From positions 310,001 through 374,000 of the forward strand of contig NZ_FAOZ01000003.1 in NCBI RefSeq assembly GCF_001536285.1: a stretch of 64,000 nucleotides of DNA. The letters are read 5' to 3'. The translations under genes and the position numbers were made by a program. Numbering within the stretch: the first letter of the stretch is position 1; the number at the start of each line of letters is the position of its first letter. Origin of the DNA: Parafrankia irregularis. GTDB taxonomy: Bacteria; Actinomycetota; Actinomycetes; Frankiales; Frankiaceae. This document shows positions 11,780 through 49,426 of this stretch, piece after piece. The notes under the pieces were generated by a model. That model did not search any database, had not been told where the DNA came from, and saw nothing but the letters and a program-made list of their open reading frames with translations.

Positions 11780-11824
11780 GATGCTAGGAACAGGCCGGCG
11801 GCCTCCGTATGTGCTGCTGACACA
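11780..11824 (-). promoter_or_regulatory. Shared promoter/operator, site A (amidohydrolase-TauD)
   Basis: On the plus strand the site reads GATGCTAGG (11780-11788), 21 bp of spacer, then the imperfect dyad TGTGC-TGCTG-ACACA (11810-11824). On the minus strand this is a TGTG/CACA dyad centred about 33 bp upstream of the -10-like TAGCAT, near -43, a position typical of activator sites. The same layout recurs at 45027-45071 and 49381-49426. Confidence 0.7.
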
Positions 11825-11915
11825 AGAACCGTCCACGCGGTTTCGGGCGAACGGCGCCGGACGCTGATCCCGCACACCCGCCGTTCACCGGCCGCGGCGG
11901 CTGCTGATTCGCCCG

Positions 11916-12863
11916 TCAGGATCCGTCGGCCGGTGGGTGTGGAAGCAGTCGCGCGGCCCACGCTCCGGTTCCGATCAGCCTGGCGGCCTCGCTCTTGATG
12001 ATCTCGATGACCCTGGTGGCGAAGCCGGTCGGCAGTTCGAGGTGTGTGGTCACGGCGATACCGAACCGGGTGGCGAGTGACGGGTCGCGCAACGGAGCCG
12101 CCCGCAGGACACCGGCGTCGATCTCGGGCCCGCAGGCCGAAAGCGGGAGAACACCCCAGCCGTAGCCCGCGCCGATGAGGTCCTTCATCACCTGCAGCGA
12201 ATCGGTGACGAACCGTGCGGTGATCCTCAGCTTGAGCCGCAGCGCCGTGTTCTCGACGCTGGTGCGCACGCCGGTCGCGCTCGCCGGCAGCACCAGCGGG
12301 TGTGCTGTCAGCTCGGCGAAGCTGACAGCGCGGTCCGGCCGCAGGTCGGCGGAGCCGGCCCCGACCACGAGAAGGTCGTCCTCCAGCAGATCCTCGTAGA
12401 AAAGCCTCCCATCCGAGAGGGGACCTATCATCGCAATGTCAACGACGCCTTTGAGGATTCCCTCGACGAGCTCCTCGGTACCCGCGACGGTTATCTGGAA
12501 ATGCACCTTGGGAAATGCGGCCCCCAGGCTTTCCAGCAGCGGCACGGCCAGCACTCCGGCGGCGGTCGTCGGCAGCCCGATATGCAGGCCCCGCTCGATG
12601 CGCGCGAGCGGGGATCCGACATAGAGCATCGCGAGCTCGAGCTGGCGCAGCGGTGCGGCCGTGGTGGCACGCAGCCGCTCACCCTCCTCGGTCAGCTGAA
12701 CGCCGCGAGCGGTCCGCAGGAAGAGCGTGACGCCCAGATCCTCCTCCAGCAGCCGAATGTGCCGGCTGAGCGCCGGCTGGGCGATCCCGAGAACGCTGGC
12801 GGCGCGGCTGATGGAACCTTCGTCCGCGACGCGCAGGAAGTAGCCGAGCCGGTGGGTGTCCAT
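11916..12863 (-). CDS. LysR-family transcriptional regulator
   Basis: This 315-residue regulator has an N-terminal winged helix-turn-helix (FLRVADEGSISRAASVLGIA then QPALSRHIRLLEEDLG) and a LysR substrate-binding domain from about residue 90. The latter has the usual periplasmic-binding-like fold. It starts 10 bp after the VOC gene, so it is probably transcribed with TesB and VOC. It lies 178 bp upstream of the amidohydrolase gene on the same strand. It could regulate that unit, but the TGTGC dyad there recurs near PucR genes and lacks the T-N11-A pattern expected for LysR. A role in the TesB-VOC unit is equally possible. Confidence 0.94.
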   Translation of the reverse strand: MDTHRLGYFLRVADEGSISRAASVLGIAQPALSRHIRLLEEDLGVTLFLRTARGVQLTEEGERLRATTAAPLRQLELAMLYVGSPLARIERGLHIGLPTTAAGVLAVPLLESLGAAFPKVHFQITVAGTEELVEGILKGVVDIAMIGPLSDGRLFYEDLLEDDLLVVGAGSADLRPDRAVSFAELTAHPLVLPASATGVRTSVENTALRLKLRITARFVTDSLQVMKDLIGAGYGWGVLPLSACGPEIDAGVLRAAPLRDPSLATRFGIAVTTHLELPTGFATRVIEIIKSEAARLIGTGAWAARLLPHPPADGS

Positions 12864-12873
12864 GCCTAGGGGG

Positions 12874-13479
12874 TCATGCCCGCGGCACCTGGTAGCCGCC
12901 GCGGGTGATCAGGCGGACCGGGTCGCTGCCGTCCCATTCCGCGCAGGTCCGCGAGATCCGGTCCAGCTGCACGAGAAAATTCGGCGTCTGTTCCACCACC
13001 TCGGTGTAGAAGCCGAAGTCCGCGCTGGTGTCGAAATAGGCCACCCGGAAGGAGCCGCTGACGCTTTCGCAGGCGAGTTCGTAACCCAGCTGCGCGTAGT
13101 GCGCCTTCCTGCCCTCGTAGTCCGGCGTCACCGTGCAGAGCTGATGCAGCGCCGACACCCGGCCGCGCCGCCATTCCCGGTAGATCCCGGGGCGGTCGCA
13201 GAGCTGCTTCACGAGCTCGATCTGCACCGGCCCGGCCTGCGCCACCGCGATCTGGATCGTCACGGTGGCCGGCTCGCCGCGGTAGGTCGCCTGCTGGTCG
13301 ACGACCGGCATGACATGGAACGGCCCCACCCCGAAGACCCGGGCCCACCTCGCCGCGGCCTCCAGCAGATCGTCGACCAGGAAGCCGAGCTGGAAGAACC
13401 GGAACTCGCCGGCCGGCCCACCACCGGGATCACTGACCGGCCAGTCCTGTTCGAACAGTGAATGTTCCGGCCGGCTCAT
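12874..13479 (-). CDS. VOC (glyoxalase/dioxygenase superfamily) protein
   Basis: The 201-residue protein has two beta-alpha-beta-beta-beta modules of the vicinal oxygen chelate fold. The opening segment FFQLGFLVDDLLEAAARWAR and the His in FGVGPFHVMPVV are visible. The second half has YDTSADFGFYTEVVE-like glyoxalase features. It resembles glyoxalase_4-type proteins found in catabolic and CoA-ester operons. Start ATG 13479 overlaps the thioesterase stop as ATGA and has GGAAGGAAGG upstream. A longer in-frame reading extends into the thioesterase gene and is not credible. The reaction is unknown; an epimerase-like or ring-cleavage role is possible. Confidence 0.85.
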   Translation of the reverse strand: MSRPEHSLFEQDWPVSDPGGGPAGEFRFFQLGFLVDDLLEAAARWARVFGVGPFHVMPVVDQQATYRGEPATVTIQIAVAQAGPVQIELVKQLCDRPGIYREWRRGRVSALHQLCTVTPDYEGRKAHYAQLGYELACESVSGSFRVAYFDTSADFGFYTEVVEQTPNFLVQLDRISRTCAEWDGSDPVRLITRGGYQVPRA

Positions 13480-32900: not shown

Positions 32901-32939
32901 CCGGTGGAATCGGAGACCGTGCAGGTCCACCGCGTTCAT
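29919..32939 (-). CDS. HerA/VirB4-like (DUF87) P-loop ATPase
   Basis: The 1006-residue protein has an uncharacterised N-terminal half. An ATPase core of the FtsK-HerA superfamily follows: Walker A GATGSGKSQT (Lys379), Walker B HLLVVEEAHRLL (~623-634) and the downstream GVLVVEQIPAKIVPDVLKNT segment typical of HerA/VirB4/TraG motors. After the core lies a Cys cluster (C762, C766, C771, in LCGADCRQRAC) that could bind a metal, and a ~230-residue helical C-terminal domain. Such hexameric motors move DNA or protein. It starts nine bases after the membrane-protein stop and is followed at three bases by the acidic-protein gene. No nuclease, relaxase or other conjugation gene is nearby, so its job is open. 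Confidence 0.88.
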   Translation of the reverse strand: MNAVDLHGLRFHRLISVPRPPEDGQPDETPTQLCAALVAAHAALVAGAAPGAMIAVAWLRRPGDPHTWFLVGGYPGFPPAARGTSTAGSPERTTGEPEPVLYPPGGKAVAIETAAVVTALGAFPVWQRCTGISDALWSRPAHAPAASGRAQRRGSFDDHVAHLPGAYAWLVLATPVSPRSVEAESADLLRSIPFLQQRDRDAQARVELERSDARYRELTRAAASGMWEVRVLAGGADPVDARLTAALLCGTSDLDDLPYVLTPSPEPPEPLTVALEAQTAPRYPFRASAELLAAIARPPRRELPGITLVAPHTFDVTPEGALRHLAAAEPPNRTDDSAGGDIHLGEVLDAGWTPAGPLAVSRATLNRHAFVCGATGSGKSQTVRSLLEALSTAPDPVPWMVLEPAKAEYARMAGRLTGHDVLVIRPGRIDAAPAALNPLEPEPGFPLQSHIDLVRALFLAAFESHEPFPQVLARALTVCYSDAGWDLVASRMRPAHRPRMYDDEELRPARPRYPTLGDLQRTASRVVERIGYGTQVTADVRGFVDVRIGSLREGTPGRFFEGGHPLDIGALLTRNVVFELEDITNDQDKAFLLGAVLVRIVEHLRVRHAGGAAAGDEADRLRHLLVVEEAHRLLRNVDHGPAAAAVELFASLLAEIRAYGEGVLVVEQIPAKIVPDVLKNTALKVMHRLPSADDRAAVGATMNLQRPQSELVVALPAGVAAVTVDGMDRPVLTRMTPGSDRESAAGARHDGVPLAGRRSQLCGADCRQRACTLAEVNDAAHLAAEPDLLIWVEAVAAHQMIGLAHLLKLPAPAPSAELRTRLASLPPRSLDCALAHAVDRAVSARASALRPFVDPDDTADRLSDTLHRLSAGLPAVTGDTRQWTAGKYRWQDVRRALVRASSEPWATTRPHPDTPDWRRRGLLLVGATVVEQLRELQEHPANAAGQDAVSLGDIEVSGLLPALRQLVGGTTPHHLRAALRSACAGPGLAKLGNQIADLVERQNRST

Positions 32940-32948
32940 CGCATCGCC

Positions 32949-35139: not shown

Positions 35140-36159
35140 TCAGGCGTCCAGGTCGCGAGATTCCGCGCGCCTGAGATCCCTGGGTGGGGCGCCGTAGGCG
35201 GCCCGGAAGGCGCGGCTGAAGTCCGCGGGATGGCGGAATCCCCACCGGGCGGAGATATCGCCGATTGTGAGGTGTCCCAACCGGGGATTCAGAAGATCAT
35301 CTTTGCAGCGCTCGAGGCGGCGGCGTCGAACCATCGCGCCGACCGTCTCGGGCTGCCCCTGGAACAGCTGGTGCAGCGTGCGCACGGATATGTGATGGGC
35401 TGCGGCAATGGTGGCTGGCCGCAGTTCTCGGTCACCGAGGTTGTGGTCGATGAAGGTGTCGATGCGTGCCCGCAGCACCTGCTCACGGGTTTCCACCGGC
35501 AGCGTGCGCTGCGCGCCCAGGTGACTCGCGAGGAAGGTGCTGGCCAGATCGAAGCCGATGCGGCCCAACCGATGCAGTTCAGTCGAGCCAGGCGCGGCGG
35601 TCTCCTCCCGGAAGCCGGACAGGAACTGGCCTAGCAGCGCTCCCGTCTGGCTCCGCACGAGGAGAGCACTGCCCAGCAGCCGGTCCGCCGCGTCGCCCGA
35701 CAACGGCAGGGAGGCTCTGGGCAGCCGCATCAGCGTCACACGTTTCTGGCGACCGTGGTCCAGGAAATCGGCCGCCAGGGGGTGGGACGTGTCGAACAGT
35801 GCGATGCCTCCGGACTCGAGACATGTGACATTGCCGGATTGTTCCACTCTGATTGGGCTGCCGTGGACCATGAACAGGTAGTAGTCCTCCGGGTCGTAGC
35901 TCCGGATGAGGGCGGGGCTCCGACGGCCCGACAGCGGCGAGAACGTGAGTGTCGTTACGGCTCCACCAGCCAGATCGAACACGTTGATTTTCCCGCGGAA
36001 ACAATCAGCATAATCACTGGTCGCCGCGGTGGGCATGATATCCTGACACATTCGATGCATCCACCACTCGAACCGTTCCCGGGTCGGAACGATGTCAGTG
36101 GACAGGGTCGTTACGGGGTCCCGCACCAGGGGCAGATTCTGGGACACAGGTTCAGACAC
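35140..36159 (-). CDS. AraC-family transcriptional regulator
   Basis: The 339-residue regulator has an N-terminal sensor domain of the AraC-binding-like type (FSPLSGRRSPALIRSYDPED, YLFMVHGSPIRVEQ) and a C-terminal double HTH from ~240. The HTH includes ATIAAAHHISVRTLHQLFQG and IGDISARWGFRHPADFSRAF then RAAYGAPPRDLRR. GTG 36159 is used: the in-frame reading upstream is long, Arg/Pro-rich and lacks a ribosome site. It is separated from the HerA locus by 226 bp and from the PucR gene by 128 bp, with all on the minus strand. The target is unknown. Confidence 0.9.
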   Translation of the reverse strand: MSEPVSQNLPLVRDPVTTLSTDIVPTRERFEWWMHRMCQDIMPTAATSDYADCFRGKINVFDLAGGAVTTLTFSPLSGRRSPALIRSYDPEDYYLFMVHGSPIRVEQSGNVTCLESGGIALFDTSHPLAADFLDHGRQKRVTLMRLPRASLPLSGDAADRLLGSALLVRSQTGALLGQFLSGFREETAAPGSTELHRLGRIGFDLASTFLASHLGAQRTLPVETREQVLRARIDTFIDHNLGDRELRPATIAAAHHISVRTLHQLFQGQPETVGAMVRRRRLERCKDDLLNPRLGHLTIGDISARWGFRHPADFSRAFRAAYGAPPRDLRRAESRDLDA

Positions 36160-36287
36160 TCGTTTACCGATCCGCAAAGACGAAGTATGACAGACAGTTC
36201 GTACGATCTTACGGCTGAAGCCCGTTTGGACGCGGAAGTACGGCGCAGCCGGTGATGTAAGGTATGGACGGCTGCCGGTGGATCGGA

Positions 36288-37604
36288 TCAGCTCCCAGCG
36301 CTGGACAATGCGACGAACCGGCGGGCGAGGGTGGCCGCGTGCAGATCGGTCAGGCGCCCGACCGCGATCGCCGCGACCGGGCCGGCCAGGCCCGCCACCA
36401 GCGCGGGCAGGCGGCGGCGCATCCGGGCAGGTGAAGCTCCCAGGCGCGCGGCGGTGGCGTCGACGCTGCCGTCCGTCTCCAGCCACGCGTGCAGCAGATC
36501 GACATCCGCGGGGGCCAGGCCGGCCAGTGTCCGCTCGGCGAAAGCCCTCAGGCGCTGCGGCGGGATGCCGACGAGCAGCCGTTCCAGGCCCAGGTCGTCG
36601 AAGAGCAACGACGTCCGCTCGGGGTCGCCGGTACGCGAACGGTCGTCCGGCGCTGAGGCGCCGCCCCGCGCTGGGGTGCCGTCCCGTACGGGGTCGCCGG
36701 CCTGCGCGTGGCCGGCTCGCAGCAGGGCCAGGACCGCGTCCGCCGCGCCGAAGGAGGTGGCGGTCTCCGACGGGTCGACCGGGTCGCCCGGCACCACCGG
36801 TCCCGCGGCGGCGAGAACCGCGCCCGGTGAGCCGAGCTGGAAGGCGAGGTGCCGCGTCAGCCGGCCGAGCTCGGCCGGCACGTCACCGGACAGCAGCGTC
36901 CATGCCCGGTCACGGTCGCGCAGCACCGGGAAGCCGATCACCTCACAGGCCTTCGCCCAGGCGTCCTGGTCACTGCCGCGGTGCCACAGTGCCGCACCCG
37001 CGTGGGGGATGCGGACGTCCAGCCCGGCGCTCTCCGCGACGCGGACGAACTCGGCTGCCGGCCCGATCGCGCCATGCCGCAGGTCGTCGATCACCACATC
37101 GACCCCGCGGGCGAGGCCGGCGGCGTGGGCGTCGCGCCGCAGCGCCACGATGGCAAGCGCCGTGGCGGCGGCCTCGACCAGCCGATCGGCGTACGCCTGG
37201 TCGGCGTCGAGCAGGAGCGCGCCCAGGTAGCGCTGTCCGATGCGCACCGGGCCGCCGTGCCCGCACCAGCCGTCCCGGCACCTGACGGCGGCCGGGCCGA
37301 GCGCGGGACGGACCAGCAGGGCGGCCAGTGCGACGGCGGAGCTGCCCGCGGTCGGCCCCCGCGGGGTCGACGGCTCGGAGGCGGCCAGCAGCGCTCCGGT
37401 CAGGTCGAGCAGCCGGAACTCCCGGCCTGTGGCGGTGGCGAGCAGGCCGAGCAGGGTGCCCCATCCCGCGCCGTCGAAGGCCGCCTCGACGAGGTCGGCT
37501 TCCAGCCCGGCCAGATCCGGAGCCGCATGCACGGAAGCTGTATGCACGGATGCTGTATGCACGGATGCTGTATGCACGGAAGCCGCCGGGGGCACGGCTA
37601 CCAT
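36288..37604 (-). CDS. PucR-type regulator with diverged helix-turn-helix
   Basis: The 438-residue protein has a sensor-like N-terminal half (FRLLDLTGALLAASEP; VEAAATALAIVALRRDAHAA), a GGDEF-like central region and a C-terminal HTH of the PucR family. The recognition helix is unusual: LGASPARMRRRLPALVAGLAG replaces the common H-x-NTVxYRLxR pattern, so DNA binding may be altered. The N-terminus carries four tandem SVHTA-type pentapeptides. ATG 37604 overlaps the methyltransferase stop by seven bases. It is the last gene of the seven-gene operon, and its paralogue at 46603-47994 keeps a normal HTH. Confidence 0.88.
   Translation of the reverse strand: MVAVPPAASVHTASVHTASVHTASVHAAPDLAGLEADLVEAAFDGAGWGTLLGLLATATGREFRLLDLTGALLAASEPSTPRGPTAGSSAVALAALLVRPALGPAAVRCRDGWCGHGGPVRIGQRYLGALLLDADQAYADRLVEAAATALAIVALRRDAHAAGLARGVDVVIDDLRHGAIGPAAEFVRVAESAGLDVRIPHAGAALWHRGSDQDAWAKACEVIGFPVLRDRDRAWTLLSGDVPAELGRLTRHLAFQLGSPGAVLAAAGPVVPGDPVDPSETATSFGAADAVLALLRAGHAQAGDPVRDGTPARGGASAPDDRSRTGDPERTSLLFDDLGLERLLVGIPPQRLRAFAERTLAGLAPADVDLLHAWLETDGSVDATAARLGASPARMRRRLPALVAGLAGPVAAIAVGRLTDLHAATLARRFVALSSAGS
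37527..37585 (-). repeat. 15-bp tandem repeat coding SVHTA units in the PucR N-terminus
   Basis: Four units of atgcacgga(a/t)gctgt (the last truncated) run head to tail with 15-bp periodicity. Read on the minus strand they encode Ser-Val-His-Thr-Ala repeats near residues 9-26. The frame is preserved with any copy number. Confidence 0.9.
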
Positions 37605-38683
37605 GCCCCCGGTGGCTCGGTGGCGATGACGGCCAGTTGGCCGGGCAGCAGCGAACGGACAGCCCAGGGCACCAGGCCCACCTCGGCCAGCCACGACATC
37701 AGCACCGGCAGCTCGATCACCTCGGCCTCCCAGGTGTTCGCCAGCAGGGTCAACGCCATCGACTGCGGCAGCGCGGCCTCAAGGTCGCGGCCGGTCGGAG
37801 GCCGCGCCGGGCGGTAGTAGTCGGAGATCACGACGAAGCCGCCGGGGCGCATCGCTCCCCTGGCCCGCAGCAACAGCGCCTTGGCCAGGTCGGCGGACTG
37901 CAGCCCGAGGACGTGCCCGATGGTCACCACGGCCGCCTCCCCGACGGGCAGGACGGCGTCCAGATAGCTGCCGGCCTGCACCTCGAGACGGTCGGCCACG
38001 CCGTGGGTGGCTGCCGCGGCCTGCGCGAACGGAATGATCGACGGCAGGTCGACGGCCAGAGCGCGCGCCCGCGGCCAGACCTGCAGCATTCCGATCGCCC
38101 ACGGAGCGGCGCCGGCGCCGAGGTCGAGCACCAGCGCGTCCGGGCCGGGATCGGGCAGGTCGGCGGCGACGGCGGCGGCGACCGCCCGCTGGGTGGGTGC
38201 GCTCGCCTGGGCGAGCCTCCCGTAGAACAGGCCGGCGTCGTCCTCGACGGTGCGGGTCGGCCGGCCGCGCCGCAGGGTGGCCGACAGTTCCGGCCAGGCG
38301 GACGTCGGACCGGGCGAGAAGCGCAGCATGTCGGCCATGGACAGGTCGGAGCCGCGCAGCAGGAAGCACCGCGCCGCCGGGGTGAGCGCGAAACGACGCT
38401 CCCCGGCGGCCTCCAGCAGGCCGGCGGCGACCAGGTAGTCCAGGACGACGACGAGCCGCGTCGGCGCGACCTCGGTGCGCGCCGCGAGCTCGTCCACCCC
38501 GCCGGGCCCGTCCGCGAGCGCCTCGAAGACACCCAGGTCGAGCGCGGCGACGACCGCCCAGTAGCGGGTGTAGCCGGCGATGACCTCCCAGATCGGCAGC
38601 GGCGGGCCGGCGGGGAAGAGCGTCCCCTCCAGGTCCGGGCCGGCCTCGGCCCACGCCGCGTGCGCTCCCACCTGCTCCACCAC
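37598..38683 (-). CDS. SAM-dependent methyltransferase, O-methyltransferase (Methyltransf_2) family
   Basis: This 361-residue enzyme has an N-terminal winged-helix dimerisation domain (YWAVVAALDLGVFEALADGP, RLVVVLDYLVAAGLLE) and a class I Rossmann domain with SAM motif LVLDLGAGAAPWAIG. This resembles plant-type and polyketide O-methyltransferases. The start is placed at GTG 38683 because GGAGG precedes it; GTG 38680 (better spacing) and GTG 38704 are alternatives. It is about 200 bp downstream of the formamidase gene and overlaps the PucR gene. A paralogue with the same motifs lies at 42778-43866 in the same operon. The substrate is unknown. Confidence 0.88.
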   Translation of the reverse strand: MVEQVGAHAAWAEAGPDLEGTLFPAGPPLPIWEVIAGYTRYWAVVAALDLGVFEALADGPGGVDELAARTEVAPTRLVVVLDYLVAAGLLEAAGERRFALTPAARCFLLRGSDLSMADMLRFSPGPTSAWPELSATLRRGRPTRTVEDDAGLFYGRLAQASAPTQRAVAAAVAADLPDPGPDALVLDLGAGAAPWAIGMLQVWPRARALAVDLPSIIPFAQAAAATHGVADRLEVQAGSYLDAVLPVGEAAVVTIGHVLGLQSADLAKALLLRARGAMRPGGFVVISDYYRPARPPTGRDLEAALPQSMALTLLANTWEAEVIELPVLMSWLAEVGLVPWAVRSLLPGQLAVIATEPPGAW

Positions 38684-38884
38684 ATGCCCTCCGGGGGTCA
38701 CCACCAGGCCTCGCCGGACCTGGTCAGGCCGGATTCACCCGCGGGCGGCACGGCGGGAACGACAGCCCAGGCATCGTATGCACGGGATCGAACCGTTTCC
38801 GCCGCAGCCCGCGGCGGCGGCGAAAACAGCCGCCCGGCCGCGGCGGAGGCTGCGGCCGCGCCGGCCACGGCTTCGGGCAGAAGC

Positions 38885-40015
38885 TCACACCGCCGGGAAG
38901 TCGCTCTTACGGATCTTGCAGTGGACGCCCTTGACGTCGTCGACGACCTGGCTGACCGCGAAGTCCCCGGCGGCGGACAGATACGCCATCGCGGCGGCGC
39001 GGCTCATCCCCATCCGCGTCGACAGGAACGCGACAGCGGCCCGGGTCGCCTTGCGCATCGCTTCGTCGAGGTCGCGGTCCATGCCGAGCGGCAGCCAGTA
39101 GGCGTCCGTCTCACCGAAGGGCTCGCGCAGCACACCGACGACCCGGTCGGCCTCGGCGCCGCGCAGGACGTCCAGCACCACCGTGGCGCGCAGCGGCGCC
39201 TCCAGCGCGGTGAGCGCGACCTCGCCGTCGCCCTGCGCGTAGTGCGGGTCACCGACGTAGAACAGCCCACCGTCGACCTGGACGGGCAGGTAGAACGTAC
39301 TGCCGGCGCCGAGCATCGCCACGTCGACGTTGCCCCCGTGACCGCCCGGCGGCACCGACGGCACCGGTTCGGTGACGTTCGGCGCGACTCCCATCACGCC
39401 GAGGAACGGGGCCAGCGGGAACACCGCCTCCGCGCCGGGCAGGCCCGGGTTGCCGAACGGCAGCACCCCGTAGTCGAGGCCGCCGGAGCGACGGGTCCGG
39501 ACGAACGTGCACACCGAGCCGTAGCGGTCGGGATGGGCCACGTCGGCGTCCGGGTGGCGGACGGTGCCCTCCGGGAACTCGCCGGCCAGGCAGCCGAGCC
39601 CATGCCGGTTGCTGATCACACCGAACGGGGCGCGCAGGTCGAGGCCGACCACCCGGACCCGCAGCAGGTCCCCGGCCACCGCCCCGTCGACCTGGATGGG
39701 GCCGGTCACGACATGTGGCCCGGCGTCGAAGTCGTGCACGATACCGGACGCGGCGATCGCCACCTGGTCGGCTGGCACCTCGTCCGGCCGCGCGCCGTGC
39801 GCGCCGAAATACGCCAGCGGGTCCCGGCCCTGGTCCTCCATGATCCCCTCATGGCTGACCGTGTCGATGATGACCGCGCTTCCCGGCGCGACCCTCAGGA
39901 CAGGCGCCGATTCGGCATTGGGCAGCCAGCCCCAGCGGACGGTGTCCGGCGTCGAGGGCAGGTACGCGGCGCCGTCGATGCCCGCGGCCGCCGGGCCCGT
40001 GCTCAGGGTCGTCAT
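38885..40015 (-). CDS. Acetamidase/formamidase (FmdA/AmdA) family amidohydrolase
   Basis: The 376-residue enzyme should hydrolyse a short amide to the acid and ammonia. Family signatures include GPIQVDGAVAGDLLRVRVV, GCLAGEFPEG and the conserved GDPHYAQGDGEVALTALE. ATG 40015 overlaps the Rieske stop as ATGA, which rules out the longer reading to 40387. The coupling to a Rieske oxygenase suggests that the amide is produced by oxidative attack (ring opening or N-dealkylation) in the same pathway. The C-terminus ends KIRKSDFPAV after a conserved VKGVHCKI. Confidence 0.92.
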   Translation of the reverse strand: MTTLSTGPAAAGIDGAAYLPSTPDTVRWGWLPNAESAPVLRVAPGSAVIIDTVSHEGIMEDQGRDPLAYFGAHGARPDEVPADQVAIAASGIVHDFDAGPHVVTGPIQVDGAVAGDLLRVRVVGLDLRAPFGVISNRHGLGCLAGEFPEGTVRHPDADVAHPDRYGSVCTFVRTRRSGGLDYGVLPFGNPGLPGAEAVFPLAPFLGVMGVAPNVTEPVPSVPPGGHGGNVDVAMLGAGSTFYLPVQVDGGLFYVGDPHYAQGDGEVALTALEAPLRATVVLDVLRGAEADRVVGVLREPFGETDAYWLPLGMDRDLDEAMRKATRAAVAFLSTRMGMSRAAAMAYLSAAGDFAVSQVVDDVKGVHCKIRKSDFPAV

Positions 40016-41235
40016 GCCGCCACCTCGATCTTGTTCGCCGCGGCGGATGCCGCCGTGGGAACCGGGGCACGGTCGGCGCCCGGCCAGTGCGCGGTGTAGC
40101 GGCGGACCAGCCAGCGGTTGAACTGCGCCTGCGCCTCCTCCAGGTACGAGTAGCGCCCGCGCGGGGCGAACCGGCTGGTCAGCCCCTGCTGGACGCCGGT
40201 CGTCGCCTCGACGTCCTGGGCGACGATGCCGTTGACCCCGGCGTTGGAAAGCTCGTACTTCTCCTCGAAGAGCCGGTCGCGCAACGCGTCCGGATGGAAC
40301 AGGTAGTTCACATCCACCGCGATGTGCCCGGCGTCGACCGGACGGATCAGAAAATAGAACGCCTGGTCCGGCGCGACACCGATGCACAGCGTCGGCGGGA
40401 CGAGCGCGAAGGCCGCGCGGGAGCGCTCCTCCTCGGTGATTCCCGGGAAGACCGGCAGCAGCGCACGCTGCAGCGCGTTGAAACCGCCGTCGGGGTGAAG
40501 AAAACCGTTCGTACGGGCGATCGCCGCGTCATCGTCGTCGTAGGGCAGGAACTCCGAACGGTCACTCGGGCAGAAGTCGTGCACGCCGGCATGCAGCCGG
40601 CTCGCGTGGTAGCCGTCGTTGAAGTTCTCGAACATCACCTTCCAGTTCCAGGGCATGGAAGGACTGGAGAAGGAGTTCCGGGCGACGCACCGCTCGAGTT
40701 CGAAGTTCGCCAGCAGCGCGTCGAGCTTCGCCAGCCTCGGTGCCAGCGGCAACGGGTCGGCCCGCAGGCTGGTGAAGACGAAGCCCTGCCACAGCTCGAC
40801 GGGCAGTGACGGCAGGCCGTGCCGGGAACGGTCGAAGCCCTCCGTGCGGCCCATCTCGCGGGCGCCGACCAACCTGCCGTCGAGGCCGTACGTCCAGTGG
40901 TGGTAGGCGCATTTGAAGGCGCGGCAGTTTCCGCTGCCCTCGCTCACCAGCATTCCGCGGTGCTGGCAGACCGGGGAGAGCACCCGGATCCGCCCGTCCT
41001 GCCCGTGGACCATGGTGAGCCGTTCACCGATGATGTCGACGTTGACGAAGTCGCCCGGGTTCGCCACGTCGGACGCCCGGCCGAGGCAGAGCCATTCCTG
41101 GCCGAAGACGGCATCCTTCTCAAAGGCGAAGAACTCCGCGTCGGTATAGACGGAAGGTGGCAGCGTGACCGCCTGTGCGGTCGGCCGCACGGAGTCGGCG
41201 AAGGATTCCAGCAGCTGCGGGGTGAGTACCGTCAT
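40012..41235 (-). CDS. Rieske non-heme iron oxygenase, alpha subunit
   Basis: This 407-residue oxygenase has a Rieske [2Fe-2S] centre from C90-QH and C109-AYHH (VCQHRG, CAYHHWTYG). The mononuclear iron ligands lie in MFENFNDGYHASRLHAGV (~205-220). The layout matches ring-hydroxylating or N/O-demethylating monooxygenases of the choline/stachydrine group. No beta subunit, ferredoxin or reductase gene is adjacent, so electron donors must come from elsewhere. ATG 41235 is 49 bp after the amidohydrolase stop, and the stop overlaps the formamidase start. Confidence 0.94.
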   Translation of the reverse strand: MTVLTPQLLESFADSVRPTAQAVTLPPSVYTDAEFFAFEKDAVFGQEWLCLGRASDVANPGDFVNVDIIGERLTMVHGQDGRIRVLSPVCQHRGMLVSEGSGNCRAFKCAYHHWTYGLDGRLVGAREMGRTEGFDRSRHGLPSLPVELWQGFVFTSLRADPLPLAPRLAKLDALLANFELERCVARNSFSSPSMPWNWKVMFENFNDGYHASRLHAGVHDFCPSDRSEFLPYDDDDAAIARTNGFLHPDGGFNALQRALLPVFPGITEEERSRAAFALVPPTLCIGVAPDQAFYFLIRPVDAGHIAVDVNYLFHPDALRDRLFEEKYELSNAGVNGIVAQDVEATTGVQQGLTSRFAPRGRYSYLEEAQAQFNRWLVRRYTAHWPGADRAPVPTAASAAANKIEVAA

Positions 41236-41284: not shown

Positions 41285-42748
41285 TCAGACCAGCGTCCAG
41301 CGGGATTTCGCGGGCAGTCCGGAGCGGGCCGTGATCGCCTCTCCGGCCGCCTGCGCGGCGGCGTAGAGCGCCTCCTCGTCGATCACCGTGTGGTGGTAGT
41401 TCTCGACCACGCGGCGGCCGTCGACCCACACGCTGTGCACACCGCGGCCGTCGGCGGACCACACCAGCTGGTTGGCGACGTTGAGCAGCGGGCGCCATTC
41501 GGGGCGGTCGGTGTCGTGCGCGACGAGGTCGGCCCTGCGTCCGGGCGCCAGCACGCCGATCTCGTCGGCCAGGCCGAGGCCGCGGGCACCGCCGACGGTC
41601 GCCATCGCGAACGCCTCCTCGGCGGGGAACATCGTCGGGTCCTGGCGGCCGTCCTTGAACAGCCCGGCGACCAGGTAGGTCGCGCGCATCAGGTCGGAGT
41701 AGTTGCTGGCGTTGTTGCCGTCGGTGCCGATGGCGACGTTGACCCCGCGGGCGGCCATCTCGGGGAACCTCCCGATCCGCGTCACGCCGTAGGAGACCTT
41801 CAGCGCCGTCGTCGGGCAGTGCGCGACGGACGTCCCCGTCCGCGCGAGCAGGTCGATCTCGGCGTCGTCGACGTGCACCGCATGGGTGAGGATGACGTTG
41901 TCCCCGAGCACGCCGAGGTCGGCGAGGTGCTCCATCGGGCGGCGCCCGTAGGTGGCGAGGAAGTACGCCGGGTCGACCTCGGCCGGCGACATGTGGAACG
42001 ACAGCCCGGTGCCCCGCTCGCGGGCGAGCCCGGCCGCCGCCTGCCACAGCTCGTCGCTGCAGGTGTTGTGGCCGACGAGGATCGGCCAGGCGGCGATCCG
42101 CCCGTCGGCGGCGGAGGCGAACCGGTCGAGCTCGTCGACCAGCCCCTTGATGGCGTCGTCGGTGTTCTGCCGGTAGACGTCCGGCTCCGGTGGCAGGTCC
42201 CAGGTCCAGCGGCCGACCCGGCCACGGATGCCGGTCTCGGCGAGCCCGTCGACGACGGCGTCGAGGAAGCGGATCGTGCCCGCCTCCAGGAAGCTGGTGG
42301 TGCCGCTGCGCAGCATCTCCAGGGCGGCGAGCTGGCCGGACAGCCGCTCCTCCGGCTCGTTGTAGGCGGCGTAGAGCGGGCAGAGCCAGGCGAAGACGTT
42401 CTCCTCGAAGGGCGTGTCATCCGGGACGTAGCCGCGGGTCAGCGGCTCGCCGGTGATGTGGATGTGCGTGTTCACCAGGCCCGGCGTCAGCACGAACCGA
42501 CGTCCGTCGACGGTCTCGGCGGCCCGGTACCCGGCGAGGATCTCGGCGGTCGGACCGACGGCGGCGATCGTGTCACCGGCGATCGCGACCGCGCCGTCCC
42601 GCAGGACCCGGCGATCGTCGTCCATGGTGACCACGACCGCTCCGGCGATGATCGTGTCGACCGGCACAGGCGCGCCGGCCGGCGCCGCCGCGGGCACGGA
42701 GTCGGGTGGGGAGTCAGCTGGGGAGAGGTCCTCGGGAGGCATCGTCAC
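41285..42748 (-). CDS. Amidohydrolase, ATZ/TRZ family (second copy)
   Basis: The 487-residue metal-dependent hydrolase has a metal-binding HIH (NTHIHITGE), GLSFHMSPAEVDP, LTHAVHVDDAEID and the metal Asp in AIGTDGNNASNYSDLM. It is homologous to the gene at 10352-11737 (shared layout PGL(I/V)N.H.H, E.GT, LGVLG....GH/TH). The first ~25 residues are Pro/Ala-rich and dispensable-looking. GTG 42748 has AGGA seven bases upstream; ATG 42742 is an alternative. It sits between the second methyltransferase (29-bp gap) and the Rieske gene, in the seven-gene operon under promoter site C. Confidence 0.93.
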   Translation of the reverse strand: MTMPPEDLSPADSPPDSVPAAAPAGAPVPVDTIIAGAVVVTMDDDRRVLRDGAVAIAGDTIAAVGPTAEILAGYRAAETVDGRRFVLTPGLVNTHIHITGEPLTRGYVPDDTPFEENVFAWLCPLYAAYNEPEERLSGQLAALEMLRSGTTSFLEAGTIRFLDAVVDGLAETGIRGRVGRWTWDLPPEPDVYRQNTDDAIKGLVDELDRFASAADGRIAAWPILVGHNTCSDELWQAAAGLARERGTGLSFHMSPAEVDPAYFLATYGRRPMEHLADLGVLGDNVILTHAVHVDDAEIDLLARTGTSVAHCPTTALKVSYGVTRIGRFPEMAARGVNVAIGTDGNNASNYSDLMRATYLVAGLFKDGRQDPTMFPAEEAFAMATVGGARGLGLADEIGVLAPGRRADLVAHDTDRPEWRPLLNVANQLVWSADGRGVHSVWVDGRRVVENYHHTVIDEEALYAAAQAAGEAITARSGLPAKSRWTLV

Positions 42749-42777: not shown

Positions 42778-43866
42778 TCAGGGGCGGCGGGCGGTCATCA
42801 CGGTCTGGCCGGGCAGCGGCTGGAGCGTCGCGGCCGGTTCCAGGCCCGCCGCCCGCATCCAGCCGTGCAGGTCGGCGACCCGGAAAACGCCGTCGCCGCC
42901 GGTTGACGCGAGCATGGTGAGGCCCATGAGCAGGGCCGGAGCGGACGGTGCGGCGGGCACCTCCGGCCGCGGGTAGTCGGCGACGACCAGCGTGCCGCCC
43001 GGCCGCAGCGCCGCCGCGGCCCGCGCCACCAGCCGGCGCGCTCCCGCGACGGACTCGGCCCGCAGCACATGGCCGAGGACGACGACGTCGGCGGCGGCGT
43101 CCGGAAGCTCCACCTGGTGGTAGTCGCCCGCCACCACCCGCACCCGGGCACCGGCCCGCACAGCGTCGACCGCGGCATCACCCACCACGGCGATCGCCCC
43201 TTCGGTCACGGCGACGACCTCGGGCAGCTCCACCGCGAGCGCGTGGGCCCGCGGCCACGCCGTCAGGAACGCCAGCGTCCACGGTGCGGCGCCGGCGCCC
43301 AGATCGATCACCAGCGGGTCGGCCCCGATCGGGCTCAGCGTGTCGACGACCGCGCGGGCGACCTGCCGTTGCACAGGAGCGGTGGCCCTGGCCAACGCCG
43401 GGTAGAAGCCGCCCGGGTCGTCCTCGATCCGCACCGCCGGCGCGCCGCGACGCAGCGTCTGGGCGAGCTCCGGCCACCGTTCGTGAGGCCCTGGTGCGCC
43501 GCGGACGAGCGCCACCATCGTCCGTGGCGCACCGGCGAGCAGATATGTGGCCGCGACCGCACCGAGCTGATAGCCGATGGCGGGCTCGTGGGTGAGCAGG
43601 CCGAGTGCCACCAGGGTGTCGGCGAGCAGCGCCGTCCGGTGCTCGTCCACGTCCACCGCGGCGGCCAGCGCGGACGCCGGCTGCGGGCCTGCGGCCAGTT
43701 GTTCGAACAGGCCCAGGTCCAGCGCGGCGACGACCGCCCAGTACCGGGTGAAGCCGTGGATCACCTCCCAGACCGGTGCCGGGCCGGGCACGACCGGCTC
43801 CGCGGCCAGCTCCGTCGACGAGCTCGGGTCGCGCAGATCACTCGGGTCGCTCAGCTCGACAGTCAT
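42778..43866 (-). CDS. SAM-dependent methyltransferase, O-methyltransferase family (second copy)
   Basis: The 362-residue paralogue of the gene at 37598-38683 shares WEVIHGFTRYWAVVAALDLG at the N-terminus and the SAM motif LVIDLGAGAAPWTLAF. A later acidic loop is VVVLGHVLRAESV, and its C-terminus is HGWMRAAGLEPAATL. ATG 43866 overlaps the MDR stop as ATGA, so the long upstream reading in the same frame is only a shadow of the MDR gene. Two related methyltransferases in one operon suggest two methylations of one scaffold, or a heterodimer. Confidence 0.9.
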   Translation of the reverse strand: MTVELSDPSDLRDPSSSTELAAEPVVPGPAPVWEVIHGFTRYWAVVAALDLGLFEQLAAGPQPASALAAAVDVDEHRTALLADTLVALGLLTHEPAIGYQLGAVAATYLLAGAPRTMVALVRGAPGPHERWPELAQTLRRGAPAVRIEDDPGGFYPALARATAPVQRQVARAVVDTLSPIGADPLVIDLGAGAAPWTLAFLTAWPRAHALAVELPEVVAVTEGAIAVVGDAAVDAVRAGARVRVVAGDYHQVELPDAAADVVVLGHVLRAESVAGARRLVARAAAALRPGGTLVVADYPRPEVPAAPSAPALLMGLTMLASTGGDGVFRVADLHGWMRAAGLEPAATLQPLPGQTVMTARRP

Positions 43867-44906
43867 GGGCGGAGAAGCACCTTGCCGACGGCCCGGCGCT
43901 CCTCCAGGCGGGACTGCGCCGCGGCGGCGTCGGCGAGCGGGAACTCCTCGTCCACCGGCGTCACCAGACCGCCACGCCAGTAACGCTCCAGCACCTCGCC
44001 GAACTCGCGGGCCGGGTACGGGTCGGAGCCGAGCAGCTTCAGGCCGAAGTGGAAGCTGTATTCCAGCGGCACCGTCGCCTCGGCGCCGGAGGTGTCGCCG
44101 ACGAACACCAGCCGCCCGCGGGGCGCCAGGCTGAACAGGGACGCCGGCCACGTCGCCGGGCCGACATGGTCGAGCACCATGTCCACACCGCGGCCGTCGG
44201 TCGCCTCCCGTACCGCGCCCACCACCTGCTCGGATGGTGTGTCCGCCCCGGCGAGGATCAGATGGTCGGCGCCGATGCCGCCGGCGAACGCCAGCTTGTC
44301 GGCGCTGCTCGCGGTCGCGATGACGGTCGCTCCGAGCTGCTTGGCGAGCTGCACCGCGGCGAGGCTCACCCCGCTGGCCGCGGCGTGCACCAGCAGCGTC
44401 TCGCCTTCGCGAAGCCCACCGACCGGGCTCAGCGCGTGCCAGGCCGTCGTCCAGATCGTCGGCAGCAGCGCCGCCTCCGCCAGCGGTACATGATCGGGAA
44501 CGAGATGTGCGTTCAACGCGGGGACCAGCACATATTCGGCGTAGCCGCCGGGAGCGTTGCCGCCGAGCACCCGCGTGTCCGGGCAGAAACCGTCGTTGCC
44601 CCGCAGGCAGGTCTCGCACTTCCAGCACGGCACCGCCGGATTGACCACCACCCGGTCGCCCTCGCGCAGCTCACCGGCCGCCGGGCCGACCGCCACGACC
44701 GTGCCGGCGATATCCATTCCCGCGATATGCGGGGACGCGAACCCGGGTATCTTCGCCGGACCGCGGCGCTGCATGACGTCCAGGTGGTTCAGACCGCAGG
44801 CCGCGACCTGGACGACGACCTCGCCGGCCCCCGGAACAGGGTCGGGAACAGTCTCGACCGCGAGCACCTCCACGCCACCGAACCCGTGCTGTACGACCGC
44901 CCGCAC
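43863..44906 (-). CDS. Zinc-type medium-chain dehydrogenase/reductase
   Basis: The 347-residue MDR has a GroES-like N-terminal domain (ACGLNHLDVMQRRG), a structural zinc loop with four Cys (CWKCETCLRGNDGFC), and a Rossmann region VHAAASGVSLAAVQLAKQLG. The catalytic zinc His-Glu pair is not in its usual GHE form (PHIAGMDIAG), so a quinone-oxidoreductase or enoyl-reductase-like activity is possible. GTG 44906 has AGGAGG five bases upstream. It is the first gene of the seven-gene operon, with promoter element C about 120 bp upstream. Confidence 0.93.
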   Translation of the reverse strand: MRAVVQHGFGGVEVLAVETVPDPVPGAGEVVVQVAACGLNHLDVMQRRGPAKIPGFASPHIAGMDIAGTVVAVGPAAGELREGDRVVVNPAVPCWKCETCLRGNDGFCPDTRVLGGNAPGGYAEYVLVPALNAHLVPDHVPLAEAALLPTIWTTAWHALSPVGGLREGETLLVHAAASGVSLAAVQLAKQLGATVIATASSADKLAFAGGIGADHLILAGADTPSEQVVGAVREATDGRGVDMVLDHVGPATWPASLFSLAPRGRLVFVGDTSGAEATVPLEYSFHFGLKLLGSDPYPAREFGEVLERYWRGGLVTPVDEEFPLADAAAAQSRLEERRAVGKVLLRP

Positions 44907-45026: not shown

Positions 45027-45071
45027 GACGCTAGGTCCCGGCGGCGTCAGGCCCGATGTGCCGGGCGCACA
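45027..45071 (-). promoter_or_regulatory. Shared promoter/operator, site C (seven-gene operon)
   Basis: Plus-strand GACGCTAGG (45027-45035), 21 bp spacer, then the perfect-arm dyad TGTGC-CGGGC-GCACA (45057-45071) followed by AA. On the minus strand the -10-like TAGCGT lies about 33 bp downstream of the dyad centre, and the MDR start is about 120 bp further. The arrangement is the same as at sites A (11780) and B (49381). Confidence 0.75.
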
Positions 45072-45149
45072 AACGCTGGTCGGACCCGCCCGCTCGGCGA
45101 CGGTCACCGGAACTGCCAGGACAGCGGACGTAGCACTCCCGAAACGGAG

Positions 45150-46602: not shown

Positions 46603-47994
46603 CTACGTCGGAACCGGCCGACGCTCGGTGACCGACTCGTCGGCGGAAGCCGTGGGCGCCGCCGACAGTGCCTGGAGGACCTCGCGGGCCACCACCGCGG
46701 CGTGCAGGCGCCACATGCGGGTCGGTTCGTCGTCCTGCAGACCGAGCAGTTCCCTGACCCGGTTCATCCGGTAGCCGACCGAGTTGCGGTGGACGTGGAT
46801 GCGTTCGGCCACCGCGGCCCGGCTGCCGTTGGTCTCCAACCAGGCCGCCAGGGTGACGAACAGGTCGGGCCGTTCGAGCAGCGGGCCGAGCTCGGCGCGG
46901 GTGAACGCCTCCAGACGGCTGCGCGGCACCGCGAGCAGCAGGCCGGCCAGACCCAGCTCCGAGTGCACCAGCGTCATCCCGTCGCCGCGATGGCGCAGCA
47001 GGGCCAGCACCGCCTCCGCCTCGCTGAACGAGGATGTCGTCTCGGCGAGGTCGAAGCCGTTGTCGGTGACGACCGGGCCGGCGGCCGCGAGGACGGGGCG
47101 GTCCGGCCCGACCATGCCCTGCAGACGGTCCCGGATGCGGCCGAGCTCGCGCTCGATGTCGCCGGTGAGCACCGTCCAGCCCAGCTCACCGTCCCGCGCG
47201 GTGGGCGACTCGATCCAGGTGAGGCCGGTGCCCCAGGCCCGCCCATGCCGGCCGTCGTAGAAGAACAGGGCGGCGGCGTGCGGAACGGCCAGGTCGAGAC
47301 CGAAGCGCGCGGCGGAGCGCAGCATCTCCTCGTGGCCTCGCGGTGATCCGAAACGGAGCTCGTTCGCCAGGCGGCTGGCGCTTTCCGCCCGCGCGGCGGC
47401 CTCCGCGTCCCGCCGCACCGCGACGATCGCCAGTGCGGTCCGCGCGGCGTTGACCAGTGCGTCGAGGCCATCCCGATCATCATCGGCGGCATCCTGGCCA
47501 GCGCTGCCGGCTTCCGTTTCCGGGGCCGGCGGGCCGACGCCGATCAGGAGCAGCCCGACGTAGCGCGAGCCGGCCTGGACGGTCGCACCCCGGCCGCGCC
47601 AGCCGTCCTCACAGGTCACCTCGGTGTATCCGGGCCGGGTCAGCAACGCGGTCAGTCCGCCGCTCACTCCGGCCGCTGCCCCGGTCGATCCGGCTGACCC
47701 GGCCGTTCCCGCCGGGCCTGCCCAGCCGGTCGTTCCCGCCGGGCCCGGCGGGTTCGCCGCGACGACGTCGCCGTGCACGCCCAGCAGCCGGACCGGACGA
47801 CCGGCCGCGGCCGCGAGCCGGCGGACGACCGGGCGCCAGTCGCTGCCCGACAGCGCGAGCTCGGTCAGCTCCCGGGCCAGCGCGGCGATGTCCGGCGCGG
47901 GCCGGGTGATGTCCGGCGCAGGCCACGGACCGCCCTGGAGCTCGGTGGGTCCCTGCGGCGCCACAGTCGTCGCGACGCGGTTGCTGGATGACAC
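46603..47994 (-). CDS. PucR-family transcriptional regulator
   Basis: This regulator of about 463 residues has an N-terminal sensory region (VRLLGVHGDVVAANPPGPAG; Gly/Ala/Thr-rich loop near 110-130) and a central GGDEF-like region (WTVLTGDIERELGRIRDRL). The canonical C-terminal HTH is AVAERIHVHRNSVGYRMNRV. PucR proteins typically activate purine or amide catabolism genes in response to an intermediate. The start is uncertain: GTG 47994 is preferred over a TTG at 48081. It lies 149 bp downstream of the SnoaL-like gene and probably shares promoter B. It is the best candidate to bind the shared TGTGC dyads. Confidence 0.9.
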   Translation of the reverse strand: MSSSNRVATTVAPQGPTELQGGPWPAPDITRPAPDIAALARELTELALSGSDWRPVVRRLAAAAGRPVRLLGVHGDVVAANPPGPAGTTGWAGPAGTAGSAGSTGAAAGVSGGLTALLTRPGYTEVTCEDGWRGRGATVQAGSRYVGLLLIGVGPPAPETEAGSAGQDAADDDRDGLDALVNAARTALAIVAVRRDAEAAARAESASRLANELRFGSPRGHEEMLRSAARFGLDLAVPHAAALFFYDGRHGRAWGTGLTWIESPTARDGELGWTVLTGDIERELGRIRDRLQGMVGPDRPVLAAAGPVVTDNGFDLAETTSSFSEAEAVLALLRHRGDGMTLVHSELGLAGLLLAVPRSRLEAFTRAELGPLLERPDLFVTLAAWLETNGSRAAVAERIHVHRNSVGYRMNRVRELLGLQDDEPTRMWRLHAAVVAREVLQALSAAPTASADESVTERRPVPT

Positions 47995-48143
47995 CCTGGC
48001 GTCACGTCCTCTCGAGCCTGTGTCAGCGGTTGCGGGCTTCCCACCTGCGGGTTCGCAGGTCCACCGGGCAGGATTACACAACGCGGCGGCAGCTCGGAAC
48101 CGACGTGCGCAGATCCCGCGACGATGCGCCGGAGCGCGCCGGA

Positions 48144-48656
48144 TCAGTCCGCCGCGGCAGTCCCCTCCGGCGTCGCCGCGCCGTCGGCGGGCCGCGACCC
48201 GGCGGGAACCGCCCCGCTGTCCCAGTAGTCAACGCGGTGCGCGACCAGTCCAGCCCGCAGGGTAAGCAGCCACAGACCGCGAATCCGCAGCGCCCCCTCG
48301 GGCATCGACGCCGTCATCAGATACGGCACAGCGACCCGATCACCGGCCGCGACCGGGTCGGCGTCCGGGACGTACCGCAGCCCCGGGAACGCCGCGAGGA
48401 AGCCTGGCAGGCGCTCCCGGTAGGCAGCCCGCCCCACACAGCCCCGGCCCGCCGGCGAGGCGTGCTCGTTGCGGAAGTCCTCGGTCACACAGGCCGCGAC
48501 AGCATCCGGATCACCGGCGTTCAGCGCCGCGATGTAGGCCGCGGCCGGCCGGGGCAGGCCGGTCCACGTCGCCTGCTCTCCGCCGAGTGCCTGCTCTCCG
48601 CGCACCTGCTCTCCGCCGAGTGCCGAGGTTCCGTCCGTGGGTGGTGCAAAGGTCAC
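48144..48656 (-). CDS. SnoaL-like (NTF2 superfamily) protein
   Basis: The 170-residue cone-fold protein has AAYIAALNAGDPDAVAACVT, DFRNEHASPAGRGCVGRAAY, FLAAFPGLRYVPD and VDYWDSG. This is the usual order of ester-cyclase/hydroxylase-like SnoaL proteins, though catalysis is not assured. GTG 48656 overlaps the VOC stop as GTGA. The first ~25 residues include a repeated GEQ motif from a short DNA repeat. Its neighbours are a VOC protein and PucR2. Confidence 0.85.
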   Translation of the reverse strand: MTFAPPTDGTSALGGEQVRGEQALGGEQATWTGLPRPAAAYIAALNAGDPDAVAACVTEDFRNEHASPAGRGCVGRAAYRERLPGFLAAFPGLRYVPDADPVAAGDRVAVPYLMTASMPEGALRIRGLWLLTLRAGLVAHRVDYWDSGAVPAGSRPADGAATPEGTAAAD

Positions 48657-49231
48657 GACTTCGGGCCCCACAGTTCGCGGACGGTCGAGAAAACCCGCTG
48701 GTTGTGGCTGAACTCGATCACGTTGCCGTCCGGGTCGGTGACGGCGCAGATGTAGCCGATCGGGTCGGGCATGTCCCGGGGCTCCCAGTGCAGGCAGCCG
48801 GCGTCCCGGGCCCGGTCGGCGGCCTTGTCGACGTCCGCGCGGGTGGGCAGCTCGATGCCGATGTGCGCGAACGGCTTCATGATCCCCTGCTGGCTGCCGC
48901 GCGCGTTGTTGAACGCGGCGAGGACCAGCACGAACGGCGTCTCCCACTGGCCGGGGTTGGACAGCCAGGCGTTGCGGCCGTCGGCGTCCTCCCGCTCGGC
49001 CACCACGACCAGCGGAGTCATGCTCGTGTAGAAGGCGACGGACGCGTCCAGGTCACCCGACGGAAGGGCGATGTGGGTCCAGCGCGGCTGCGCGAGCCCC
49101 GGCCCGCCCGTGACCGCGGCGGCACTGTCACTCTCAGACCGCGGGCTCTCGGGCCGCACGCTCTCAGGCCGCACGCTCTCAGGCCGCGATGTCGTCTCAG
49201 GCCGCGCTGCTGTTGTCGCTTCGATCGTCAC
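48653..49231 (-). CDS. VOC family glyoxalase/bleomycin-resistance/dioxygenase protein
   Basis: The 192-residue protein has a repetitive N-terminal tail (RPESVRPESVRPESPRSES) and then a complete VOC domain. The domain shows WTHIALPSGDLDASVAFYTS, FAHIGIELPTRADVDKAADR, and the C-terminal metal Glu in TDPDGNVIEFSHN. The two metal His (THIAL, AHIGI) and Glu are all present, so a metal-dependent dioxygenase or glyoxalase role is plausible. GTG 49231 is about 150 bases downstream of promoter element B. It is followed by SnoaL-like and PucR2 genes. Confidence 0.9.
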   Translation of the reverse strand: MTIEATTAARPETTSRPESVRPESVRPESPRSESDSAAAVTGGPGLAQPRWTHIALPSGDLDASVAFYTSMTPLVVVAEREDADGRNAWLSNPGQWETPFVLVLAAFNNARGSQQGIMKPFAHIGIELPTRADVDKAADRARDAGCLHWEPRDMPDPIGYICAVTDPDGNVIEFSHNQRVFSTVRELWGPKS

Positions 49232-49380
49232 CCGACGTCACTCCTCATGCTCCGCCCACGTGGCGAGATGGTGCGTCCACGTGGTCCGCCTGTCGCTGTC
49301 GCTCCCCGCCCGGCCGTCTGGAACTCCTACCCGGTTCGGCCGCCGGTGCCACGTCCGCCGGGCACCCAGCGTCGTGCCGA

Positions 49381-49426
49381 GATGCTAGGAACGGCCCGGT
49401 ACCCGCACCGATGTGCCAGAAGCACA
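49381..49426 (-). promoter_or_regulatory. Shared promoter/operator, site B (VOC-SnoaL unit)
   Basis: Plus-strand GATGCTAGG (49381-49389), 22 bp spacer, then the dyad TGTGC-CAGAA-GCACA (49412-49426) followed by AAA. It lies in the divergent region between the VOC gene (minus) and the HATPase-PP2C gene (plus). On the minus strand TAGCAT is a -10-like element downstream of the dyad. It nearly repeats sites A and C. Confidence 0.75.

Follow-up and report, generated by a model that had tools for sequence, protein, structure and literature searches.

Judging from the sequence, a single PucR-type activator very probably switches on, as a set, four gene groups in a 64,000-nucleotide stretch of the Parafrankia irregularis genome (the window). 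Each group is preceded by a dyad-symmetric site (s1 to s4) that lies shortly upstream of a -10 hexamer, and we consider the four dyads to be operators of one local activator, most likely the protein PucR2, with a probability of about 0.78. Read on the minus strand, s1, s2 and s3 consist of TTGTG-N7-CACAT followed at a near-constant distance by the -10 hexamer TAGC(A/G)T; the dyad can also be written TGTGY-N5-GCACA. The sites and their -10 hexamers are as follows.

11809..11825, minus strand: s1 dyad, TTGTG-N7-CACAT, upstream of the amidohydrolase-TauD genes; kept in seven genomes
11781..11786, minus strand: -10 of s1, TAGCAT; spacing and ATG alike in seven genomes
45056..45072, minus strand: s2 dyad, upstream of the seven-gene Rieske/formamidase operon; kept in seven genomes
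45028..45033, minus strand: -10 of s2, TAGCGT
49411..49427, minus strand: s3 dyad, upstream of VOC-SnoaL-PucR2; kept in six genomes, with a relict in genome G021
49382..49387, minus strand: -10 of s3, TAGCAT
9061..9081, minus strand: s4, TTGGTGCCCAAGGCACAGCGA, upstream of the BMP/ABC (ATP-binding cassette) importer operon; at the orthologous place in seven of seven loci examined
9036..9041, minus strand: -10 of s4, TAACGT; spacing as in s1 and s2

A sequence-only reading of the window had reported s1 to s3 in one orientation, with spacers of 21–22 bp and a dyad centre 33–35 bp from the -10. All three elements were located where it had placed them, all on the minus strand, and the CTAGG-to-TGTGC spacers measured 21, 21 and 22 nt. 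The distance from the dyad centre was 31, 31 and 32 nt to the first T of the -10 (s1, s2 and s3, respectively) and 33.5–34.5 nt to the -10 centre. If the first base of the -10 is taken as -12, the dyads would be centred at about -43/-44 from the predicted transcription starts. Such a position is used by activators that contact RNA polymerase next to the -35 region, and no -35 hexamer was seen by eye at these promoters. Sites s1 to s3 carry TGT-N9-ACA (s3 in Parafrankia being TTTTGT-N9-ACAT), and the outer operator bases are asymmetric (T...T). The same reading had described CCTAGC as a promoter element. This sequence is indeed present as a -10 of the TANNNT type, but it is not an element of its own: it varies as CCTANNNT, and in the other genus s2 carries CCTACGTT or CCTACGGT.

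The bare dyad was no more frequent than expected. With up to two mismatches it occurred 33 times in the window, compared with 34.9 expected in shuffles, and TTGTG-N7-CACAT matched three times in the 9.5 Mb genome, compared with four matches for a backwards control. However, all three genome matches were s1 to s3, lying in one window, on one strand and at promoter spacing. When the genome scan proposed earlier was run, with patterns instead of a matrix, the dyad plus -10 pattern gave three matches, all in the window, and none for the control. It is the placement of the dyads, and not their number, that exceeds chance.

Among 35 genomes of the family, s1 to s3 were present in six: that of the window (G000), G020, G027, G029, G030 and G032. 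Genome G034 held s1 and s2. We take G020 to be Parafrankia sp. EUN1f, G027 Pseudofrankia asymbiotica, G029 Frankia nepalensis CN7, G032 Pseudofrankia sp. BMG5.36, and G034 the metagenome-assembled genome (MAG) HOG45C. Over the 35 genomes, the dyad plus -10 pattern matched nine times (control, seven), and nine of the nine real matches fell at these promoters. A relaxed dyad pattern gave 23 matches (control, 10), comprising 18 at s1 to s3 in the six genomes, two at s1 and s2 in G034, one at the s3 relict in G021 and two elsewhere; these last two (contigs C393 of G020 and C266 of G032) lacked a -10 at the expected distance, and we counted them as chance matches. Across 393 genomes that sample the class, the 21-mer TTTGTGCNNNNNGCACATCGG had 14 matches in eight genomes. 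Every match fell at s2 or s3, the G021 relict accounting for one of them, and there was no match outside the family and no control match.

Orthologous operons in relatives, where the sequence-only reading had suggested looking, share the element: 20 sites of the s1 to s3 type stand at orthologous promoters in the seven genomes, window included, and s4 was found in seven of seven loci. All four sites are thus at orthologous promoters in six genomes of two genera, and three (s1, s2 and s4) in the seventh, the MAG G034. A Rieske orthologue with at least 82% identity was present in exactly the seven genomes with s1 and s2. We compared the window with 14 orthologous promoters of the other genus, excluding G020 and G021. 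The dyad arms were identical in 154 of 154 letters, partly by construction because the arms belonged to the search pattern. The -10 positions agreed in 68 of 70 (one extra spacer base being allowed in s2 of G034), the CGG that follows the dyad in 37 of 42, and the inner six bases in 43 of 84 (51%), and identity was 34% in the upstream flank, 37% in the spacer and 39% in the downstream stretch. The contrast with the flanks is not by construction, nor is the presence of all three sites in each of the six genomes with Rieske and PucR2 orthologues.

The order of the operons differs among these genomes. In G027, G030 and G032 the four units form one cluster, with s3 inverted relative to s2; G029 carries s2, s1 and s4 on one contig and s3 on another; G034 has s1 and s2 in divergent orientation; and 33 kb separate s1 from s2 in the window. 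Since the rearranged operons of other lineages keep their sites, the sites have travelled with the operons. Together with identical arms and flanks only about 34–39% identical, this rearrangement makes the pattern a phylogenetic footprint.

The sequence-only reading had counted three operons. Its sharing of the element holds for s1 to s3, but the number was too low, as a fourth, weaker site (s4) stands at the importer operon. We made a matrix from 10 of the 14 sites outside Parafrankia and used 60 Markov windows as background. In the window, s2 (30.3), s3 (22.9) and s1 (17.1) were the top three matches; the best score per Markov window averaged 11.4 and reached 19.7 at the highest. Site s4 ranked fifth with 10.7 and has TAACGT at the 19-nt distance seen in s1 and s2. 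Its element, TTGGTG(C/T)C(C/G)AAGGCACA with TA(A/G)C(G/C)T at a constant distance, was at the orthologous place in all seven loci. About 30 bp upstream of s4, a block GTAACGA (9112–9120, minus strand) was also conserved in seven of seven loci (GTAACGAA in six). This block resembles half a GlnR (nitrogen control) box, and on that ground the importer may perhaps be under nitrogen control as well.

PucR2 fits the role of the common regulator. It is encoded in a target operon (s3) and was present in all six genomes that hold s1 to s3, with 76–96% identity to the protein of the window. At E ≤ 1e-50 it was found in no other of the 35 family genomes, apart from shortened relatives in G018 and G019. 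Its C-terminal PucR helix-turn-helix (HTH; PF13556, HTH_30) scored 59.8 bits against a cut-off of 27 (E = 2.2e-16) and is nearly invariant among orthologues, and a GGDEF-like domain (PF17853) scored 24.4 bits against a cut-off of 24.5. The N-terminal PucR domain PF07905, the family label used for PucR-type regulators in the available text of PMC7652997, was not among the Pfam matches at E ≤ 1e-3, and PucR2 is therefore placed in the HTH_30 class rather than in PF07905. The only PDB match of PucR2 at 1e-3 was MabR (9f80, E = 7.5e-5, in the HTH region). Outside the family, 75 loci with relatives of the s2 amidohydrolase (L018–L092, among the 80 kept of 163 confirmed) gave no PucR1 or PucR2 match at 1e-4, and L092 was the single locus of this set with a match to the dyad expression. 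Relatives of this amidohydrolase with 64–70% identity are common in Acidimicrobiia and other actinobacterial MAGs.

We propose that a PucR2 dimer would bind TTTGTGC-N5-GCACAT and its variants through the C-terminal HTH. The bound sites would lie immediately before promoters with a good -10 (TANNNT) and, by eye, no -35. When a putative inducer is present, PucR2 would recruit RNA polymerase and switch on the ABC importer (s4), amidohydrolase-TauD (s1), and the Rieske/amidohydrolase/amidase/O-methyltransferase operon that ends in PucR1 (s2). VOC-SnoaL-PucR2 (s3) would be switched on as well, which would amount to positive autoregulation. Uptake and degradation of a single nitrogen-containing compound is the probable function of the set. 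The genes of the four groups are as follows.

7591..8700, minus strand: BMP/PnrA-like substrate-binding protein, s4 importer operon (Pfam Bmp)
5605..7530, minus strand: ABC ATPase with two ABC domains, s4 importer operon (Pfam ABC_tran, two stretches)
3411..5633, minus strand: ABC permease region, s4 importer operon (Pfam BPD_transp_2)
10352..11773, minus strand: amidohydrolase, s1 operon, its start put at a conserved ATG (Pfam Amidohydro_1)
9187..10269, minus strand: TauD/TfdA-type dioxygenase, s1 operon (Pfam TauD)
43863..44906, minus strand: zinc-type alcohol dehydrogenase, first gene of the s2 operon (Pfam ADH_N, ADH_zinc_N)
42778..44628, minus strand: open reading frame (ORF) with O-methyltransferase a, s2 operon; the gene itself probably starts downstream of where the ORF does (Pfam Methyltransf_2)
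41285..42748, minus strand: amidohydrolase, s2 operon (Pfam Amidohydro_1)
40012..41235, minus strand: Rieske oxygenase alpha subunit, s2 operon (Pfam Rieske, Ring_hydroxyl_A)
38885..40387, minus strand: ORF with FmdA/AmdA-type amidase, s2 operon (Pfam FmdA_AmdA)
37598..38704, minus strand: O-methyltransferase b, s2 operon (Pfam Methyltransf_2)
36288..37694, minus strand: PucR1, last gene of the s2 operon; PucR2 paralogue with a diverged recognition helix
48653..49231, minus strand: VOC/glyoxalase-fold protein, s3 operon (Pfam Glyoxalase)
48144..48947, minus strand: ORF with SnoaL-like protein, s3 operon (Pfam SnoaL_2)
46603..48081, minus strand: PucR2, s3 operon; predicted regulon activator, predicted to be autoregulated from s3 (Pfam HTH_30, distribution, HTH conservation)

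Gene order and strand suggest that each set forms one transcript. An ATG follows the s1 -10 by 7 nt in all seven genomes (in the window, the amidohydrolase ATG at 11773), so that the s1 transcript is probably leaderless or nearly so. For the Rieske protein, the best NCBIfam and PDB matches pointed to a monooxygenase of glycine betaine or carnitine, and for the amidohydrolase to deoxyadenosine, 8-oxoguanine or triazine deaminases. Because these matches were far below curated cut-offs or broad relatives, we name no substrate. Elsewhere in the window, three adjoining minus-strand ORFs lie between s1 and s2 (28119–34913). The largest matched HerA/FtsK-like ATPases, whereas the other two had no Pfam match; the trio is also present in EUN1f and is perhaps a mobile or defence block. 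GntR proteins are encoded near 53308–55993.

The sequence-only reading had offered both PucR proteins and a LysR protein as candidate binders. Of the two PucR proteins, PucR2 is the likely one, whereas PucR1 has a diverged HTH. PucR1 is 38–40% identical to PucR2 proteins, had no Pfam match at 1e-3 (PF13556 included), and has a different basic stretch in place of the PucR2 motif HRNSVGYRMNR in the alignment. At E ≤ 1e-20 it was found, among the 35 family genomes, only in the six with s1 to s3, and in the loci that were mapped its gene closes the s2 operon. Its ratio of nonsynonymous to synonymous substitution rates was 0.20 overall, and 0.35 in the HTH compared with 0.10 for PucR2 (NG86, one genome pair), and it appears to be under purifying selection. 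The replaced recognition-helix motif and this selection suggest that PucR1 is probably a working protein whose DNA reading has been changed or lost. One might therefore picture a PucR1–PucR2 heterodimer on the operator, with PucR1 serving as inducer input or negative feedback. The restriction of PucR1 to the same six genomes, its place at the end of the s2 operon, its apparent purifying selection, its loss of the conserved recognition helix and the asymmetric outer bases of the operator would all suit such a pair, although the interaction is a proposal and the structure models were too poor for use (mean pLDDT, the predicted local distance difference test, 31.5 for PucR2 and 53.9 for PucR1). 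We regard this arrangement as unlikely, and the corresponding view of PucR1 as a paralogue that gave up canonical DNA reading to act in trans as a PucR2 partner (heterodimer or feedback sensor) is held only tentatively. If it were true, the regulon would have a built-in loop, in which activation of the s2 operon yields an altered version of the very protein that activates it.

Several observations weigh against PucR2 as the activator acting at all four sites. Although G034 keeps s1, s2 and s4, no PucR2 or PucR1 match was found in it; this may be a gap, since the MAG G034 is in 850 contigs and the one that holds the cluster stops close to the position of PucR1. Genome G021 had no Rieske orthologue and no s1 or s2 match, and its PucR2 is a 32-residue HTH match, yet it keeps VOC, SnoaL and a perfect s3 dyad (locus L101, contig C7 near 108153), with the -10 changed to CAGCAT. 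This locus looks like recent decay, but a perfect dyad without an intact PucR2 could also mean that another regulator uses the site. G018 (L129) and G019 (L128) have VOC followed by a shortened PucR2-like gene without the N-terminal part and with a near-identical HTH, and the dyad was not found in the 3.7–4.1 kb examined at these loci. The spacing is not strictly constant, with one extra base in s2 of G034 and one more in s3 than in s1 and s2, and s4 is GGT-N9-ACA instead of TGT-N9-ACA. The rank-four matrix match (15.0 at 19202), which lies in a P450 gene and has no -10, outscores s4. By dyad score alone, s1 (17.1) and s4 (10.7) are below the best shuffled-window score (19.7); the case for these two sites therefore rests on the -10 spacing and the orthologues.

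The findings in G034 and G021 bear on the idea that the dyads are operators of a regulator encoded elsewhere (CRP/FNR, TetR, MarR, or the genome's own FasR/MabR-like PucR with a TGT-N9-ACA site), PucR2 being only a target. Both genomes keep sites while intact PucR2 was not detected, and MabR/FasR sites have the same core spacing. A housekeeping regulator, however, should have sites elsewhere too, and in our scans the element was limited to genomes with the cluster or a remnant of it, save for the two strays without a -10. The N5 spacing is also unlike the CRP motif, TGTGA-N6-TCACA, and besides PucR1 no regulator gene was recognised among those ORFs of the Pseudofrankia loci that were scanned or mapped, which were a part of the total. 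We consider a regulator from elsewhere rather improbable. An AraC protein (35140–36486) was rejected as the regulator: among 11 mapped loci it was present only in the two EUN1f loci that cover its place (L013 and L097), and not in the Pseudofrankia loci.

That the dyads belong to the neighbouring LysR protein (11916–12863), the remaining candidate binder, is very improbable. Its gene adjoins s1 on the same strand, and a relative was present in four of the six genomes with s1 to s3 (G000, G020, G029 and G030). Nevertheless, G027 and G032 hold all sites but gave no match at 1e-50, and there were matches in G017, G019, G028 and G033, which hold none, so that the gene is not present wherever the sites are. 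LysR boxes follow the rule T-N11-A, and no T-N11-A lies on the dyad axis, although off-centre ones occur in the dyad. Chance, or mere sequence conservation among close relatives, accords with the unremarkable dyad counts and with the near identity of the window's genome and G020 in this region, but is hardly tenable given identical arms between flanks of near random identity across genera and the absence of control matches to the 21-mer in 393 genomes.

Control by PucR2 thus remains the reading we favour. The same operator stands at several promoters and is conserved upstream of orthologous operons, and the activator-type site that the sequence-only reading took to define a local regulon is supported by the genome scan and by these operons, with a regulon larger than it had described. 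For a PucR-type regulator of Frankia relatives, the result is a computed regulon made up of regulator, operator, promoters and four operons. It brings together an importer, oxygenases, amidohydrolases and methyltransferases as a single functional unit, open to assay as a whole. The titles and abstract openings of the matches listed for Frankia PucR, for Parafrankia/Pseudofrankia regulons, and for PucR with TGTGC/GCACA contained no description of this regulon.

The predicted system is a local activator regulon of the PucR type, a kind already known. According to the available text of PMC7652997, characterised PucR-type regulators are mostly activators, several of them acting at inverted repeats. 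PucR, PutR and AdeR of Bacillus subtilis resemble the present case as PucR-type regulators of nitrogen-compound use. Inverted repeats of 17 bp for PutR and 24 bp for AdeR are cited as their binding sites in PMC7652997. The B. subtilis PucR site is described there as not palindromic, and the likeness noted here is one of description. GabR of Corynebacterium glutamicum is likewise a PucR-type activator of a local catabolic operon and acts at 21-bp inverted repeats (PMC7652997). GabR has two repeats at one promoter and a divergent regulator gene, whereas here one repeat stands at each of four promoters and the regulator lies inside a target operon. The accessible parts of PMC9894248 and PMC13198045 gave no usable operator.

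In the HTH and the operator there is a likeness to MabR of Mycobacterium, an activator that recognises TTTTGT(N)9ACAAAA, and to its relative FasR of Streptomyces coelicolor, which recognises highly similar repeats (PMC5541348, available text). They share with PucR2 a PucR-type C-terminal HTH, as the PucR2–MabR sequence match indicates, and with s1 to s3 the TGT-N9-ACA layout. In the MabR structure, the two recognition helices are best suited to neighbouring major grooves at a distance of one turn (PMC11617747, available text), a geometry that fits half-sites about 10 bp apart. The targets of MabR and FasR are fatty-acid synthase II genes, with sites at about -67, -87 or -147, whereas here a predicted import and catabolic set has sites at about -43. 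The operator also differs in its inner bases, mostly GC...GC, in its right arm ACAT, and in GGT for TGT in s4. That its main form nevertheless keeps the MabR layout suggests that actinobacterial PucR HTH proteins read DNA by a shared rule.

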